IMG/VR virus record: IMGVR_UViG_3300025769_000521
Span: 1-30,991 of that record
DNA from: a virus
DNA length: 30,991 bases
Strand: one strand, 5' to 3'
The notes under the pieces were generated by a model. It saw only the letters and a list, made by a program, of their open reading frames with translations. It made no database searches and was not told the DNA's origin. This document shows, piece after piece, positions 12,164 to 21,198 of this stretch. Made by a program: the position numbers and the translations under genes. Numbering within the stretch: position 1 is the stretch's first letter; every line of letters starts with the position of its first letter.

Positions 12164-12175
12164 AGTCATTTGACT
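12164..12175. promoter_or_regulatory. Candidate integrase arm-type site (left arm)
   Basis: AGTCATTTGACT at this position is the exact reverse complement of AGTCAAATGACT at 12580-12591, on the far side of the tRNA-derived core. A 12-base inverted match flanking a tRNA-identity segment and next to an integrase gene fits arm-type binding sites. Binding is inferred. Confidence 0.45.
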
Positions 12176-12344
12176 TGCAGGGATAGTGGTGGGTAAAAAA
12201 ATTTAAATGGTATAAAGTTTATATTGTGTTATCATTTGCTTAACATAGAGTTAATGTTTATGTGTAATAACAAATATAAAAATTATACTGACAATATATT
12301 TTTTTTTAAAAGTTCAAGTATAGTTAGTTTATTTAGGGGGTTTA

Positions 12345-12387
12345 ATTGATTACAAATCAATTGCTCTACCAGCTGAGCTACAAGGGC
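12345..12387 (-). other. attP core: 5' half of tRNA-Thr(UGU)
   Basis: Read on the minus strand from 12387, this is the first 43 nt of a tRNA: acceptor strand GCCCTTG, TA, D-stem GCTC/GAGC with AGCTGGTA loop, then anticodon stem ATTGA, loop TTTGTAA and TCAAT. The anticodon is TGT (Thr). The tRNA match stops at the end of the anticodon stem: no T-arm or 3' acceptor follows. A truncated tRNA beside a tyrosine integrase is the hallmark of an attP. Recombination within the anticodon loop would rebuild the host tRNA-Thr using the phage-carried 5' half. Confidence 0.8.
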
Positions 12388-12410
12388 ATTTTAAAAAACC
12401 TTATATACAT

Positions 12411-12450
12411 AGCCGAATTGGATCGCAAGATTCTTTTCGGCTCTTTTTTT
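12411..12450 (+). terminator. Rho-independent terminator downstream of late operon
   Basis: The arms AGCCGAA and TTCGGCT enclose an ~18-base loop and are followed by C and eight T residues. It lies downstream of the last late gene and beyond the tRNA-derived core. It would stop late transcripts before the integrase region. Confidence 0.7.
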
Positions 12451-12502: not shown

Positions 12503-12521
12503 TATACCGAATCTATACCGA
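12503..12521. repeat. Tandem TATACCGA direct repeats
   Basis: TATACCGA occurs at 12503-12510 and again at 12514-12521, an 11-base period (about one helical turn). The pair lies between the attP core and the right-arm repeats, where excisionase or a regulator could bind. Function is inferred from position. Confidence 0.4.
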
Positions 12522-12562: not shown

Positions 12563-12592
12563 AAATGACTGATAAATATAGTCAAATGACTG
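12563..12592. promoter_or_regulatory. Candidate integrase arm-type sites (right arm, two direct repeats)
   Basis: AAATGACTG occurs at 12563-12571 and 12584-12592, spaced 21 bases (two helical turns). The second lies in AGTCAAATGACT, whose exact reverse complement is at 12164. Direct repeats of this sort beside the core and the integrase gene fit the arm sites of a tyrosine recombinase. Confidence 0.45.
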
Positions 12593-12662
12593 TTGATAAG
12601 CTACTTAACATCAGCTATAACCTATGTATAAGTTAATGATAACTAATATAGAGGAGAGAATA

Positions 12663-12977
12663 ATGACTACAAAAACAATTACTGTTAAGCATATACTTAA
12701 TGAAACAGTAGAAAAAAAAACCTTTTCTTGTTTAGAAGAAGTACAAGCTTATGTTTATACTTTACTAGATCAGAAAGATTTGTTTGTACCATCAAAAATT
12801 CATGGAGTTTATGAAACTGCTGATTGGATATGGACATCAAAACCTGGAAGTGCTTTCAACACAAGTTTGTTACAATTTTATTTTTTTTCAAATGATGAAA
12901 AAGAAAAACTTCCAGTTGATGAGTTAGAAGAATGTCAAAAAGAAAATGAGTTAAACTATTATGGTGGGAGAGCATAA
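12663..12977 (+). CDS. Small protein upstream of integrase, unknown
   Basis: This 104-aa protein starts at the ATG at 12663, which has GAGGAG about 7 bases upstream; ATGs further upstream lack a site. The product is acidic with no recognised domain (ITVKHILNETVEKKTFSCLE, and later ETADWIWTSKPGSAF). Its last base is the first base of the integrase start codon, so the two are probably co-expressed. It may be an integration or excision accessory factor, but it lacks a visible winged-helix or MerR-like pattern. Confidence 0.6.
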   Translation: MTTKTITVKHILNETVEKKTFSCLEEVQAYVYTLLDQKDLFVPSKIHGVYETADWIWTSKPGSAFNTSLLQFYFFSNDEKEKLPVDELEECQKENELNYYGGRA

Positions 12978-14131
12978 TGTCTAAAGAAAAGCTAGAGTAC
13001 AATAATATATCGTCAGTTAAAATTAATGGTAAAACTAAATATCGTTTTCAATACAAGGGTGCTGATAATAAAATTAAATTTATTACCAGTATAAATAAAA
13101 AGACTCTTAAACCTTTAGTGGTTAAGAAGATTGAAAAAGATGGTTTCAAAATTATTGATTTTAACTTTTGGGGTATAGAGGATGCACATAAGTTGTGGCT
13201 TGATCGTCAGTTATATAAAGAAAAAGAATATGGCAAACCATCTAAAAGCTGTATTAAAGATTATAATTCTATGGCTACCTATCATGTTTTGCCTTACTTC
13301 AAAAACCAAGACATTAGATTAATTGATAAGGATTTAATTAAAGATTTTGTTACACATTTAGAAACTAAACAATCTATTAATGCAAAAACATTATCTAAAA
13401 TTTTTAATGTTTTAAGTGCCATCCTGGACTATTCAGCTTCTCAAAATAAAATTCAAAGAAATGTTTGTAAGGATATGAATTTTTTATCTGACATTGTTAT
13501 AGTAGAAAAGCAGCAATCTAAATTAGATTTTAATGATTGGACTTTAGAAAAAGTTCAGCAGCTCATTAATCATGTAGAAAGAGATGATATTAAATTAATG
13601 TTTCATATTATGTTGCAGACTGCTTGTAGACCAAGTGAGATCAGAGGTTTAAATAAATCTAATTTAAAATTTAAATCTAATGTTCCTTACATAAGTATAA
13701 CTAATGCAGTTAAAAGAGATCAATCTTTAGGTTCAACTAAAACTAAATCAGGCACTAGAGATTTGGCAATATCTATTAGTCTTAAAGATAAAATACTTGA
13801 ACATCTTAATAGATTACCAGAAACTCAAACTAATTTGTTTCTTAATAGCAAGGGTGATTTTATGCGTTTAGAAACGATTATAAGGGCTCTAGACAGGGCA
13901 ATAAAGAGTTTTGGGGTAGAACTACCCATTGAAAGAAAAAGCTATTTTTTCAGGCACTATATGGCTACCTATTGGTCATTCAAAAAGAAGTACACAGATC
14001 CTCAAGACCTTGCAAATGCTTTAGGTGATAAAGATGTAAATTTTGTGAACAGAACTTACATCAAACCTTATGCAAATACTGAAATGGAAAAAGAAAAAAG
14101 CGATTGGTTAAACAATCAGTTTAAGGATTAA
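12977..14131 (+). CDS. int: Tyrosine-family integrase
   Basis: This 384-aa recombinase would catalyse integration at the tRNA-Thr site just upstream. Residues ~65-165 form the SAM-like core-binding domain (DAHKLWLDRQ and later QSINAKTLSKIFNVLSAILD). The catalytic domain shows R218 in TACRPSEIRGL, a Lys in STKTKSGTRDL (255 or 257), R326 in SYFFRHYMATYW and nucleophile Y361 in NRTYIKPY. The usual His three residues before the second Arg is Tyr (Y323), and the usual LGH reads LGD (D351), so two supporting residues differ. The N-terminal ~60 residues may be the arm-binding domain. Confidence 0.9.
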   Translation: MSKEKLEYNNISSVKINGKTKYRFQYKGADNKIKFITSINKKTLKPLVVKKIEKDGFKIIDFNFWGIEDAHKLWLDRQLYKEKEYGKPSKSCIKDYNSMATYHVLPYFKNQDIRLIDKDLIKDFVTHLETKQSINAKTLSKIFNVLSAILDYSASQNKIQRNVCKDMNFLSDIVIVEKQQSKLDFNDWTLEKVQQLINHVERDDIKLMFHIMLQTACRPSEIRGLNKSNLKFKSNVPYISITNAVKRDQSLGSTKTKSGTRDLAISISLKDKILEHLNRLPETQTNLFLNSKGDFMRLETIIRALDRAIKSFGVELPIERKSYFFRHYMATYWSFKKKYTDPQDLANALGDKDVNFVNRTYIKPYANTEMEKEKSDWLNNQFKD

Positions 14132-14487: not shown

Positions 14488-14886
14488 TTAAAGTTCTGAT
14501 GACAGGGAGCAATCTCCATCATTGTTAGAACTATTAATAGGTGGCTTATGTTGACCTACTAATTCTGCAGCTTCACTTGTAAAATAATCAAGTGGCTTAT
14601 TAAAAAATTTACTCATTTGTATAAGTATGATTGTTGAAACTCCATTTTGTCCTTTCTCATATTTCTGAATTTGCTGAAAGGTTTTTGGTGGAGTTAAAGC
14701 TTTGGCTAATTTACTTTGTGTTAATGGTTTTTTTCTAGGTGTAGTCCAAATGTTTTTTGTTTCTGTGTCATAAGTTTTAACAAAAGTAACATGATTTAAT
14801 CTTGCTTCTTTAATTTTTTTTCCAATAGCTTTATTAAGAACTGTATCAAATTCAGTTTTGACTACATGGTTATATGGTCTTGGCAT
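14488..14886 (-). CDS. XRE-family HTH regulator
   Basis: This 132-aa protein has a Cro/CI-type helix-turn-helix: AIGKKIKEARL, then after a ~20-residue insertion LTQSKLAKALTPPKTFQQIQKYEKGQN and the closing helices TIILIQMSKFFNKPLDYF. The insertion between helix 1 and helix 2 is longer than in Cro. It is the distal regulatory gene of the leftward set, with a GGAGAG site before the ATG. It may act as an anti-repressor, Cro-like switch or control protein for the methyltransferases. Confidence 0.75.
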   Translation of the reverse strand: MPRPYNHVVKTEFDTVLNKAIGKKIKEARLNHVTFVKTYDTETKNIWTTPRKKPLTQSKLAKALTPPKTFQQIQKYEKGQNGVSTIILIQMSKFFNKPLDYFTSEAAELVGQHKPPINSSNNDGDCSLSSEL

Positions 14887-19087: not shown

Positions 19088-19599
19088 GTCCAGAAATAGA
19101 ATTAGATTTATATGAGATAACTACTGCAGCACAAACTGGTTTATTAAGAGTTACTGAAAGCATTAAATTAAACCAGGATTGGGGTCATAAATATTCTGGC
19201 ACATTAGAAGATAAAATTTCAAAAAGTATTAGTGGAGCTATGGCAGAGATCAGCTTATGCAAGTATTTTGGCATACCATTTGAGTTTCATACAAATGTAG
19301 GTTCAGCTCCTGATGTTAAATACAAAAATTATAATATCCAGGTTAGATCACAAACAGTTAAAAAAAATAATAACAACTCACTTATTATTAGACCTAATGG
19401 TGTAAAGCCAAATGAGATTTATGTATTTATATTAAGTGAAGCTCCCAAATTTACTATTAAAGGTTTTATAAATAGTTCTGCTGTAATTGGTAAAGATAAT
19501 TACTTAACAGACTTTAACCTTGCTAGACCTAAAGTTTGGTCAGTACCTTTAGATATTTTATCACCAATTTTATTATTAAAGGATGGAGCATGGAATTAA
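19084..19599 (+). CDS. PD-(D/E)XK-like nuclease-fold protein
   Basis: The ATG at 19084 overlaps the previous stop and is preferred. The 171-aa product has E55 in GAMAEISLCKYFG, D77 in GSAPDVKY and Q86-V-R88 in YNIQVRSQ, which follows a restriction-endonuclease-like core with Arg in place of the usual Lys. A beta-rich C-terminus follows (YVFILSEAPKFTIKGFI). It overlaps the cytosine methyltransferase by 10 bases, as restriction-modification partners often do. Activity is uncertain because the last catalytic Lys is replaced. Confidence 0.5.
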   Translation: MSPEIELDLYEITTAAQTGLLRVTESIKLNQDWGHKYSGTLEDKISKSISGAMAEISLCKYFGIPFEFHTNVGSAPDVKYKNYNIQVRSQTVKKNNNNSLIIRPNGVKPNEIYVFILSEAPKFTIKGFINSSAVIGKDNYLTDFNLARPKVWSVPLDILSPILLLKDGAWN

Positions 19600-20486
19600 A
19601 TGTTCTTGATTTATTTTCTGGCATTGGTGGTTTTAGTGTTGGCTTGGAAGCTACAGGAAAATTTAAAACTATTGGATTTTGTGAACAAGATAAATTTTGC
19701 CACAAAGTCTTACATAAACATTGGAGTGATGTTCCAATTTATGAGGATATTAAAAAATTAGATGGAACAAAAATTAAAGCAGATGTCATTGTTGGGGGAT
19801 TCCCATGCCAAAGTTTCAGTATTGCTGGTAAGCAAAAAGGCAAAGATGATGAACGATACCTCTGGGATGAAATGTTTAGAGTCATTAAAGAGGTTAAACC
19901 CAGATGGATTATTGGCGAAAATGTCCAAAACCTTACTAACATCTCAAATGGAGAAATCTTGCAAGGAATTTACAATGATTTGGAATCTCAAGGTTACGAA
20001 GTCCAAACTTTTAATATTTCAGCTAGTTCGCAAGGAGCATGGCATAAAAGAGCAAGAGTCTGGATCGTTGCTGCCAACGCCAAGTGCAAGTTGTTACATG
20101 GATGTAGTAGCACCACCACAGACAGTACAAAAAAATTCACAAGGTTGGAGTGTAACAAGAGTAAAGTCAGGGGTGAAATATGGAGCAAAATTAAACGATG
20201 TAGTGAACAAAATTTACAACACACCAACAACAAACGATTCCAAAAATTTAAGTTTTCCGAAAAGCCAAAAAAAAAGAACATCCATAATAGGCAATTTAAT
20301 GAAAGAGCAAGTAATAAATCCTGGTGGGAAACTCAATCCGAACTTTGTGGAGTTCCTAATGGGGTACAATATGAATTACACCCAGATAGAGCCAACAGAA
20401 TTAAAGCACTTGGAAACTCAATCGTACCACAAATCGTTACTGAAATCGGACAAGCAATTATTAAAGCAGAAGAAGAAATAGAATGA
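19590..20486 (+). CDS. dcm: DNA C5-cytosine methyltransferase
   Basis: The ATG at 19590 has AAGGATGGAG upstream and overlaps the previous gene by 10 bases. The 298-aa enzyme transfers methyl from SAM to cytosine C5. Motif I is LDLFSGIGG (6-14), motif IV GGFPCQS with catalytic C73, motif VI GENV (109-112), motif VIII RARVWIV (154-160), and motif X RIKALGNSIVPQ (270-281) after the target-recognition region. All key residues are present. It probably protects phage DNA from host restriction. A long second frame (19762-20481) runs inside it. Confidence 0.92.
   Translation: MELNVLDLFSGIGGFSVGLEATGKFKTIGFCEQDKFCHKVLHKHWSDVPIYEDIKKLDGTKIKADVIVGGFPCQSFSIAGKQKGKDDERYLWDEMFRVIKEVKPRWIIGENVQNLTNISNGEILQGIYNDLESQGYEVQTFNISASSQGAWHKRARVWIVAANAKCKLLHGCSSTTTDSTKKFTRLECNKSKVRGEIWSKIKRCSEQNLQHTNNKRFQKFKFSEKPKKKNIHNRQFNERASNKSWWETQSELCGVPNGVQYELHPDRANRIKALGNSIVPQIVTEIGQAIIKAEEEIE
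19762..20481 (+). CDS. Overlapping +1-frame ORF with methyltransferase-family-like motifs
   Basis: A 239-codon open frame lies wholly inside the C5 methyltransferase gene, one base out of phase. Its translation has motifs I recognise from another type of phage methylase-annotated protein: FTMIWNLKVTKSKLLIFQLV, ESGSLLPTPSAS, NTPTTNDSKNLSFPKSQKKR and GGKLNPNFVEFLMGY. The ribosome site is weak (GAGGA about 12 bases upstream). It may be a true overprinted gene, or a frame that is translated in relatives. Translation here is unproven. Confidence 0.4.
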   Translation: MEQKLKQMSLLGDSHAKVSVLLVSKKAKMMNDTSGMKCLESLKRLNPDGLLAKMSKTLLTSQMEKSCKEFTMIWNLKVTKSKLLIFQLVRKEHGIKEQESGSLLPTPSASCYMDVVAPPQTVQKNSQGWSVTRVKSGVKYGAKLNDVVNKIYNTPTTNDSKNLSFPKSQKKRTSIIGNLMKEQVINPGGKLNPNFVEFLMGYNMNYTQIEPTELKHLETQSYHKSLLKSDKQLLKQKKK

Positions 20487-20665
20487 ACATTTATGGAGAC
20501 ATGAGAACTTGTATTAAATGTGCAGCTAGAGCTGACATAGTAGAAAAAGGTAAAGATTATTGTGCTGATTGTTATTCATTAACAATTTGGAAAATACCAC
20601 TTTCAAAAGTTGGAAAACATTTAGATAAAAAAGAGGGAGTAAAATTAAAGGTGGTAACACCATGA
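20483..20665 (+). CDS. Small zinc-ribbon protein
   Basis: This 60-aa protein has C10-x2-C13 (RTCIKCAAR) and C27-x2-C30 (DYCADCYS), a four-Cys zinc ribbon. It overlaps the methyltransferase stop by 4 bases and the adenine methyltransferase start by 4. It could bind DNA or assist either enzyme; no specific family is recognised. Confidence 0.6.
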   Translation: MNIYGDMRTCIKCAARADIVEKGKDYCADCYSLTIWKIPLSKVGKHLDKKEGVKLKVVTP

Positions 20666-21198
20666 TTCCATTTCCAAAAAAGAAATACAATATTATTTAT
20701 GCAGATCCAGCTTGGCATTATCAAGTTTGGGCAGAGGGTAGCAAAAGAAATGTTACTGCAAAGTACAGTACAATGAATCCACAAGAAATTTGGGATTTAC
20801 CAGTCCAAGACATAGCAGATAAAGATTGCATTTTATTTTTATGGGTTACATTTCCTAAATTATTAGAGGGAATAGAAACAATAAATAAATGGGGATTTAC
20901 CTATAAAACTTGTGGATTTAATTGGGTTAAAAAAAATAAAGTCGCTGATAGTTTTTTTTGGGGTATGGGTTATTGGACAAGAGCTAATACTGAACTTTGT
21001 TTAATTGCTACTAAAGGCAAACCAAAAAGAATTAGTAAAGGAGTTCATCAGGTAGTTTATGAACGAATAAGAGAGCACTCAAGAAAACCAGATTGTATTA
21101 GAGATAAAATAACAGAACTTTGTGGTGATCTACCAAGAATTGAACTATTTGCCAGACAAAAAGTTGATGGATGGGATTGTTGGGGTAATGAAGTATGA
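20662..21198 (+). CDS. MT-A70-family adenine methyltransferase
   Basis: This 178-aa enzyme would methylate adenine N6. The catalytic motif is DPAW (15-18) in YNIIYADPAWHYQVW, a variant of DPPW. Further MT-A70 blocks are ILFLWVTFPKLLEGIETINK, YKTCGFNWVKKNK, FFWGMGYWTRANTELCLIAT and IREHSRKPDCIRDKI, ending in IELFARQKVDGWDCWGNEV. It lies three genes after the PD-(D/E)XK-like gene and in the same operon as the cytosine methyltransferase, suggesting combined protection of phage DNA. It has 4-base overlaps on both sides. Confidence 0.9.
   Translation: MIPFPKKKYNIIYADPAWHYQVWAEGSKRNVTAKYSTMNPQEIWDLPVQDIADKDCILFLWVTFPKLLEGIETINKWGFTYKTCGFNWVKKNKVADSFFWGMGYWTRANTELCLIATKGKPKRISKGVHQVVYERIREHSRKPDCIRDKITELCGDLPRIELFARQKVDGWDCWGNEV

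Follow-up and report, generated by a model that had tools for sequence, protein, structure and literature searches.

Most elements that target tRNA genes restore the 3′ end of the gene, and the host promoter stays in charge of the restored copy. The locus studied here raises the question of what would drive a restored tRNA when the phage brings the 5′ half. The window, i.e. the whole stretch of DNA that was analysed, is a virus record of 30,991 bases that encodes an SU10-type portal protein, a terminase, a lysozyme, an HTH regulator and a tyrosine integrase; cultured pelagiphages are matched by short stretches of it. An earlier note on this DNA had read positions 12345-12387 as the core of a phage attachment site (attP) made of the 5′ half of tRNA-Thr(UGU), with the consequence that the tRNA restored by integration would be transcribed from phage DNA. 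In this work, we propose that the site is likely the attP of a temperate-type pelagiphage that uses tRNA-Thr(UGU) and leaves the rebuilt tRNA behind a terminator-promoter element of the phage.

The reading of the 43 nt as a tRNA-Thr(UGU) 5′ half ending at the anticodon stem was borne out, since window positions 12387-12345 (minus strand) are identical to nt 1-43 of the tRNA-Thr(UGU) gene of the SAR11 genome HTCC9565. The string has one exact match in the window, at 12345-12387 (minus strand), and with up to three mismatches it gave no match in 100 shuffles. Nucleotides 1-26 comprise the acceptor 5′ strand and the D arm, and the last 17 nt form the full anticodon stem-loop, ATTGA-TTTGTAA-TCAAT. 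Beyond nt 43 the phage reads TAAACCCCC... and the host reads AGGTCCGCGG. The 3′ half is indeed missing at this point, as had been claimed: phage DNA takes its place, and ARAGORN detected no complete tRNA in the window. The comparison of the window with Rfam returned nothing at the gathering score.

The half adjoins a gene for a tyrosine integrase of 384 aa (12977-14131, plus strand; Pfam Phage_integrase, 1.4e-10; PHROG 1 integrase, 1.8e-30), which starts 590 nt from nt 1 of the tRNA and is directed away from it, on the opposite strand. The R..HxxR..Y region of tyrosine integrases is conserved in A1. An HTH_3 repressor-like protein of 132 aa is encoded at 14488-14886 (minus strand; Pfam HTH_3, 2.3e-07; PHROG transcriptional regulators). 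The presumed recombination core is the anticodon stem-loop, nt 27-43 (12345-12361, minus strand), whose dyad is exact in both the phage attP and the host attB, and the presumed strand-exchange overlap is the 7-nt anticodon loop (12350-12356, minus strand).

The hexamer GGTATA occurs on both sides of this core, twice on the integrase side, 11 nt apart (12503-12519, minus strand, as 12508-12503 and 12519-12514), and once on the far side (12209-12214, plus strand). In 17 dereplicated relatives there were 33 sites on the integrase side against 3.4 expected and 29 on the far side against 3.6 expected, often as 11-nt pairs and, in many relatives, at similar distances from the core; the hexamer was absent from the integrase side in seven of the 17 (L019, L025, L027, L037, L052, L078 and L100). 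These repeats are putative arm-type sites of the integrase. The assignment of the half as attP core is therefore supported by the adjoining tyrosine integrase and by arm-type repeats on both flanks, and the window presents three features of a lambda-type attP: a tyrosine integrase, an anticodon dyad shared with attB, and two-sided arm repeats.

Other features were observed in the window. The attP is bracketed by a 12-nt perfect inverted pair, AGTCATTTGACT / AGTCAAATGACT, at 12164-12175 and 12580-12591, which is possibly a site for a regulator or an excision factor; its core word is also present in L130 and L132, and twice beside the scar of the SAR11 genome G313, described below. An ORF of 117 aa (12624-12977), for which no Pfam or PHROG match was obtained, overlaps the integrase start and is a candidate for an excision factor or regulator. 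Positions 19536-20486 resemble a C5 cytosine methylase by eye and positions 20662-21198 encode an MT-A70 methylase; the two have a possible role in the protection of phage DNA.

Upstream of the tRNA half, signals are present on both strands. The plus strand carries an intrinsic-terminator-like hairpin (12411-12450), AGCCGAA...TTCGGCT followed by a T run, which faces the late genes and for which RNA folding gave -17.4 kcal/mol with a z-score of -4.87. Its stem lies partly within the spacer of a promoter-like element of the minus strand, composed of a candidate -35 TTGCGA (12423-12428), a spacer of 17 nt and a candidate -10 TATAAG (12400-12405) that ends 12 nt before nt 1 of the tRNA. The earlier note had pointed to TATATAAG on the minus strand as a possible -10; the string was confirmed, and TATAAG is found within it, at 12405-12400, inside the conserved upstream block. 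Five sequences following the elements of relatives, with four different stems, fold likewise (z-scores of -4.2 to -7.0). The arrangement TTGC[GA]A-17-TATAA[GAC], 12 nt before the tRNA, is the best promoter match in 13 of 17 dereplicated relatives, L130 has a candidate that differs from this common arrangement, and a good candidate is absent in three (L025, L078 and L100).

In any single phage the promoter match (9/12) is not significant, 6-17% of shuffles being as good (6-13% for the phages with the common arrangement); the native promoters of host tRNA-Thr genes reached a median of 9/12 in the same test. The TTGCGA-17-TATAAG site was absent from the list given by a consensus promoter scan that is stricter at the -10, so the evidence for a promoter comes from conservation and from the scars in host genomes. 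A terminator scan found none at the element, perhaps owing to the internal loop of the hairpin. Directly upstream of the tRNA half there is hence a conserved element that combines a terminator hairpin facing the late genes with a promoter-like TTGCGA-17-TATAAG directed towards the tRNA, whose promoter activity is putative. No paper on such a terminator-promoter element was found in a literature search that covered part of the earlier work on pelagiphage integration and tRNA sites.

The layout is shared by related phages. A search with the integrase only retrieved 21 loci, and the integrase start is present in 15. A tRNA 5′ half lies on the opposite strand, 482-1679 nt away, in 13 of these 15 (nine tRNA-Thr, four tRNA-Asn), while the two others have just 108 and 122 nt of upstream DNA; the layout is thus common to 13 of the 13 integrase relatives with enough flanking DNA, with tRNA-Thr or tRNA-Asn. 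This unbiased count is restricted to the integrase-fetched set, because many of the other loci had been fetched for holding the half or the element. A pattern scan of viral contigs for tRNA-Thr-like starts gave at least 120 matches, and among the matches listed 19 were halves and 101 complete tRNAs.

Conservation was measured in 17 relatives with less than 80% integrase identity, leaving out L056 and L286. Mean pairwise identity was 0.96 at nt 8-26 and 0.87 at nt 27-43, and directly past nt 43 it was 0.38; the 60 nt upstream of nt 1 gave 0.53-0.64 and the sequence farther out 0.33-0.43. The phages therefore retain a 5′ stretch much longer than recombination by itself should require, and the 3′ side is absent altogether. 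This retention would be explained by selection for rebuilding a working tRNA from its 5′ side.

The two loci left out, L056 and L286, present a complete tRNA-Thr(UGU) at the attP (L056:6731-6805, plus strand; L286:5137-5211, minus strand) with the same upstream element. The two tRNA sequences are the same, and their 3′ half pairs properly but is unlike that of SAR11, an indication of a phage tRNA in direct use. As both contain a complete tRNA, they were also considered as integration junctions, and for L056 this was dropped because phage-like genes are present on both flanks. Four other loci (L124, L125, L126 and L134), with 96-98% integrase identity, have GCCCCTGTAGCTCAATTGG in place of GCCCTTGTAGCTCAGCTGG, a variant tRNA-Thr 5′ half that perhaps suits a different host. 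Halves may therefore change with the host.

On the host side, genome contigs scanned with the half gave at least 120 loci, mostly of Pelagibacteraceae. Among the matches listed, 123 hits comprised 116 complete tRNAs and seven partial ones, L238 being partial solely from the contig end. In 95 loci among the matches listed, rlmB and the complete tRNA-Thr are no more than 100 nt apart (about 40 nt), often with nadK next; in 10 the distance is 1.3-5.6 kb and the DNA upstream of the tRNA is different, and 11 have no rlmB in the available sequence. The host attB is the tRNA-Thr(UGU) gene beside rlmB in SAR11, and the half gives a precise host assignment for the phage. Mizuno et al. (PMC3861242) linked marine phages, including pelagiphages, to their hosts by means of tRNA fragments.

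The displaced tRNA genes preserve traces of past insertions. A left copy of the 5′ half is kept in six of the ten displaced cases among the matches listed (L152, 40/43; L169, 40/43; L188, 43/43; L217, 42/43; L225, 42/43; L246, 36/43) and is absent in L146, L175, L181 and L205 (21-23/43); control windows (n=275, with 14 island or partial loci excluded) gave a mean of 22/43 and a maximum of 26/43. The left copy lies 40-42 nt after rlmB in five of the six cases and 1,164 nt after it in L188. Mutated or element-type bases are found in the left copies, for the most part at nt 39-43, and the far copy stays complete. At the left junction, the departure from the host sequence occurs at nt 39 (G313), 41 (L169), 42 (HTCC9565) or 43 (L217 and L225), which points to strand exchange at or 5′ of the end of the loop. 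In L188, L217, L225, L315 and L169, the displaced 5′ fragment upstream and the complete tDNA downstream are in the same orientation. By their arrangement, these scars correspond to the predicted product of 5′-half integration. Islands of the Islander class would include an integrase, but none of the phage family was found in the 22 genomes tested; the SAR11 islands look decayed, the integrase being carried by the phages.

Two scars resemble the phages in their upstream DNA. In L169 (RIS_SAG_23), the D stem of the left copy is altered and the complete tRNA is 2 kb away. The 68 nt upstream of this complete tRNA align with the element of phage L130 with a score of 77 (shuffle maximum 34, n=300); the tRNA-side half of the element is nearly unchanged, with TTGATATATAACCCACTA kept, and the outer hairpin arm has drifted. 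Among the rows tested for element likeness, L169 alone scores high (71, next 22). A search for the L130-type element in 397 SAR11 genomes gave 41 that reach E 0.01, with only G313 (1.1e-7) clearly above the rest; among seven inspected of the 20 loci listed, a tRNA was seen in L320 only. In G313 a tRNA-Asn locus is split, and downstream of the native-site copy the DNA is similar to the phage far arm, with scores of 51 for L133, 54 for L276 and 42 for the window type (shuffle maxima 31, 32 and 25). Upstream of its complete tRNA-Asn there is a phage-type element, which scores 60 against both L133 and L276 (maxima 32 and 39) and 53 against L130 (maximum 38); against the window type L122 the score is 26, under the shuffle maximum of 31. 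The two pieces of G313 are on different contigs and are presumably linked.

HTCC9565 (G001) has the same arrangement, with a partial tRNA-Thr copy at rlmB and, at a distance of 5.7 kb, a complete one, whose upstream DNA belongs to another island type and not to the window element. This genome has 30 tRNAs over the cut-off (RF00005), and ARAGORN reads one tRNA-Thr, the displaced copy; if the tRNA list is complete, the strain depends for its only tRNA-Thr on DNA brought by the insert. Regarding gene content, the inserts L342:1-6879 (G313, tRNA-Asn) and L316:3548-13626 (G003, tRNA-Thr) include a C5 methylase and a SinI-type endonuclease, and the former also AspBHI/Mrr-type and helicase-nuclease genes. 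Sites of tRNA 5′ halves may be hot spots for defence islands.

In the proposed mechanism, strand exchange by the integrase would take place at the anticodon loop of the tRNA-Thr(UGU) gene of the host, so that nt 1 to about 37 would come from the phage copy and the remainder from the host. The late-gene end of the prophage would then retain the host promoter and 5′ half, cut off from the rest of the gene, and the complete tRNA would be formed at the integrase end, with phage DNA upstream of it. Since the integrase is directed away from the tRNA, its transcription cannot serve the tRNA. On one strand, the element would stop late-gene or host read-through before the integrase; on the other, it would act as the tRNA promoter.

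The tRNA half, the integrase, the arm-type repeats, the hairpin and the host target can be read from sequence comparison, and the integration of relatives at such sites is demonstrated by the host scars. For the window phage, no intact prophage with its integrase was found in 22 SAR11 genomes (0/22), the integrase gave one match, weak (7.9e-7), in 397 SAR11 genomes, no junction between the phage element and a 3′ half of SAR11 was found in viral contigs, and the window-type element was absent in the 397 genomes, in a search run without a positive control. As no prophage, junction or window-type element was found, integration of this phage is deduced from its attP and from the scars of its relatives. 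The check proposed in the earlier note, a search of SAR11 and relatives for tRNA-Thr(UGU) genes interrupted by a prophage, thus gave junctions of the predicted form in SAR11 genomes, and no intact prophage or junction of this phage. In the same way, the claim that phage-derived DNA would stand upstream of the rebuilt tRNA, and transcribe it, agrees with the scars of relatives; the junction of this phage was not found, and the promoter activity is presumed.

The rebuilt tRNA could instead be transcribed by read-through from the leftward phage operon, antisense through the integrase gene, in which case the element would be only a terminator of the other strand. This operon ends with the HTH gene (14488-14886, minus strand), 2.1 kb upstream of the tRNA half, and no terminator is listed between them, in a scan that also misses the 12411-12450 hairpin. 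Moreover, the T run of the hairpin is on the late-gene side only and the promoter matches are individually not significant. Read-through is nonetheless unlikely, for TATATATAAG is conserved although it is not part of the hairpin, with a constant distance of 12 nt to the tRNA. In addition, the scar of L169 has kept the tRNA-side half with TTGATATATAACCCACTA and not the original outer arm of the hairpin, and no phage operon was seen beside it.

The same scars bear on the origin of the element. If it had been captured from a host tRNA locus, the similarity of the scars would reflect the common ancestry of the hosts and not a phage derivation. This is quite improbable, because the upstream regions of native tRNA-Thr and tRNA-Asn genes in other SAR11 genomes are unlike the element, L169 is the sole high scorer among the rows tested, one strong match was obtained in 397 genomes, and the far junction of G313 also has phage-type arm sequence; on the other hand, native tRNA promoters share the median of 9/12, and a capture may have taken place at the first origin of the attP. 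That the half would be a relic or a decoy (a source of tRNA fragments or host mimicry) and not an attachment site fits the fact that no lysogen of the window phage was found (22 and 397 SAR11 genomes, and viral contigs), but we consider it hardly credible, given its constant association with the integrase, the flanking arm sites, the host junctions and the end of identity at the edge of the core.

The statement that a phage with a 5′-half attP belongs to a minority stands, yet there are precedents in Islander islands, T7-like cyanophages and pTN3. According to passages of PMC8776855, the attP of T7-like cyanophages (P-SSP7 and S-TIP37) matches the first half of tRNA-Leu; like the window, these phages are marine and have the integrase gene beside a 5′-half attP. 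In P-SSP7 the half is just 3′ of int on the same strand, whereas in the window family int is divergent, with the hairpin-promoter element between them, and the target is tRNA-Thr or tRNA-Asn in place of tRNA-Leu. A tblastn of the window integrase against a phage collection including P-SSP7 and HTVC011P matched five distant records, with no cyanophage or pelagiphage among them. Part of PMC4383910 reports a 5′ tDNA fragment in 159 of 3919 Islander islands, which, like the SAR11 scars, consist of a displaced 5′ fragment, an insert and a regenerated tDNA; this is a class of site use for which those sections describe no dedicated promoter, while the window family has a conserved element.

Archaeal pTN3-like elements attach through the 5′ half, and their integrase promoter drives the tRNA, a situation that is uncommon in bacteria (PMC8371274). 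As in our proposal, the restored tRNA is expressed from element DNA, but their att splits the integrase gene, whereas the window attP lies 590 nt outside a divergent int. In the tRNA-dependent lysogeny of mycobacteriophages, and in roseophage CRP-810, which integrates in tRNA-Thr and brings its own tRNA-Thr, the disrupted tRNA function is also supplied by the phage (passages of PMC10865867 and PMC11288001); such systems combine a core of about 10-13 bp with a complete phage tRNA, while the window has a 43-nt 5′ half only and no complete tRNA. In the SAR11 phages HTVC011P and HTVC200P a tRNA-Leu adjoins int, and it is complete by ARAGORN (L383:5592-5676 and L384:2787-2872, respectively), as in L056 and L286 and unlike the window half; it could have a role like that of the L056 tRNA-Thr. 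Attachment by a 5′ half is already known from the Islander, cyanophage and pTN3 precedents, and what appears new here is the divergent integrase with a conserved terminator-promoter element, the tRNA-Thr and tRNA-Asn targets, and the host scars showing the swap.

In this group, the phage would control the transcription of a tRNA that is indispensable to the cell. The complete tRNA-Thr genes found behind insert DNA in SAR11 suggest that promoter swaps occur and last, and the scars provide a means of detecting past lysogeny in SAR11, where prophages are rarely seen. We tentatively extend this to a widespread family of pelagiphage integrases that would routinely swap the promoter of the only tRNA-Thr of SAR11 (and of tRNA-Asn), making the lysogen, and later the scar, dependent on phage DNA, an idea to which we give slightly less than an even chance. 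If true, the phages would have an inherent hostage or addiction device, with prophages made stable and permanent promoter swaps left in the host lineage.
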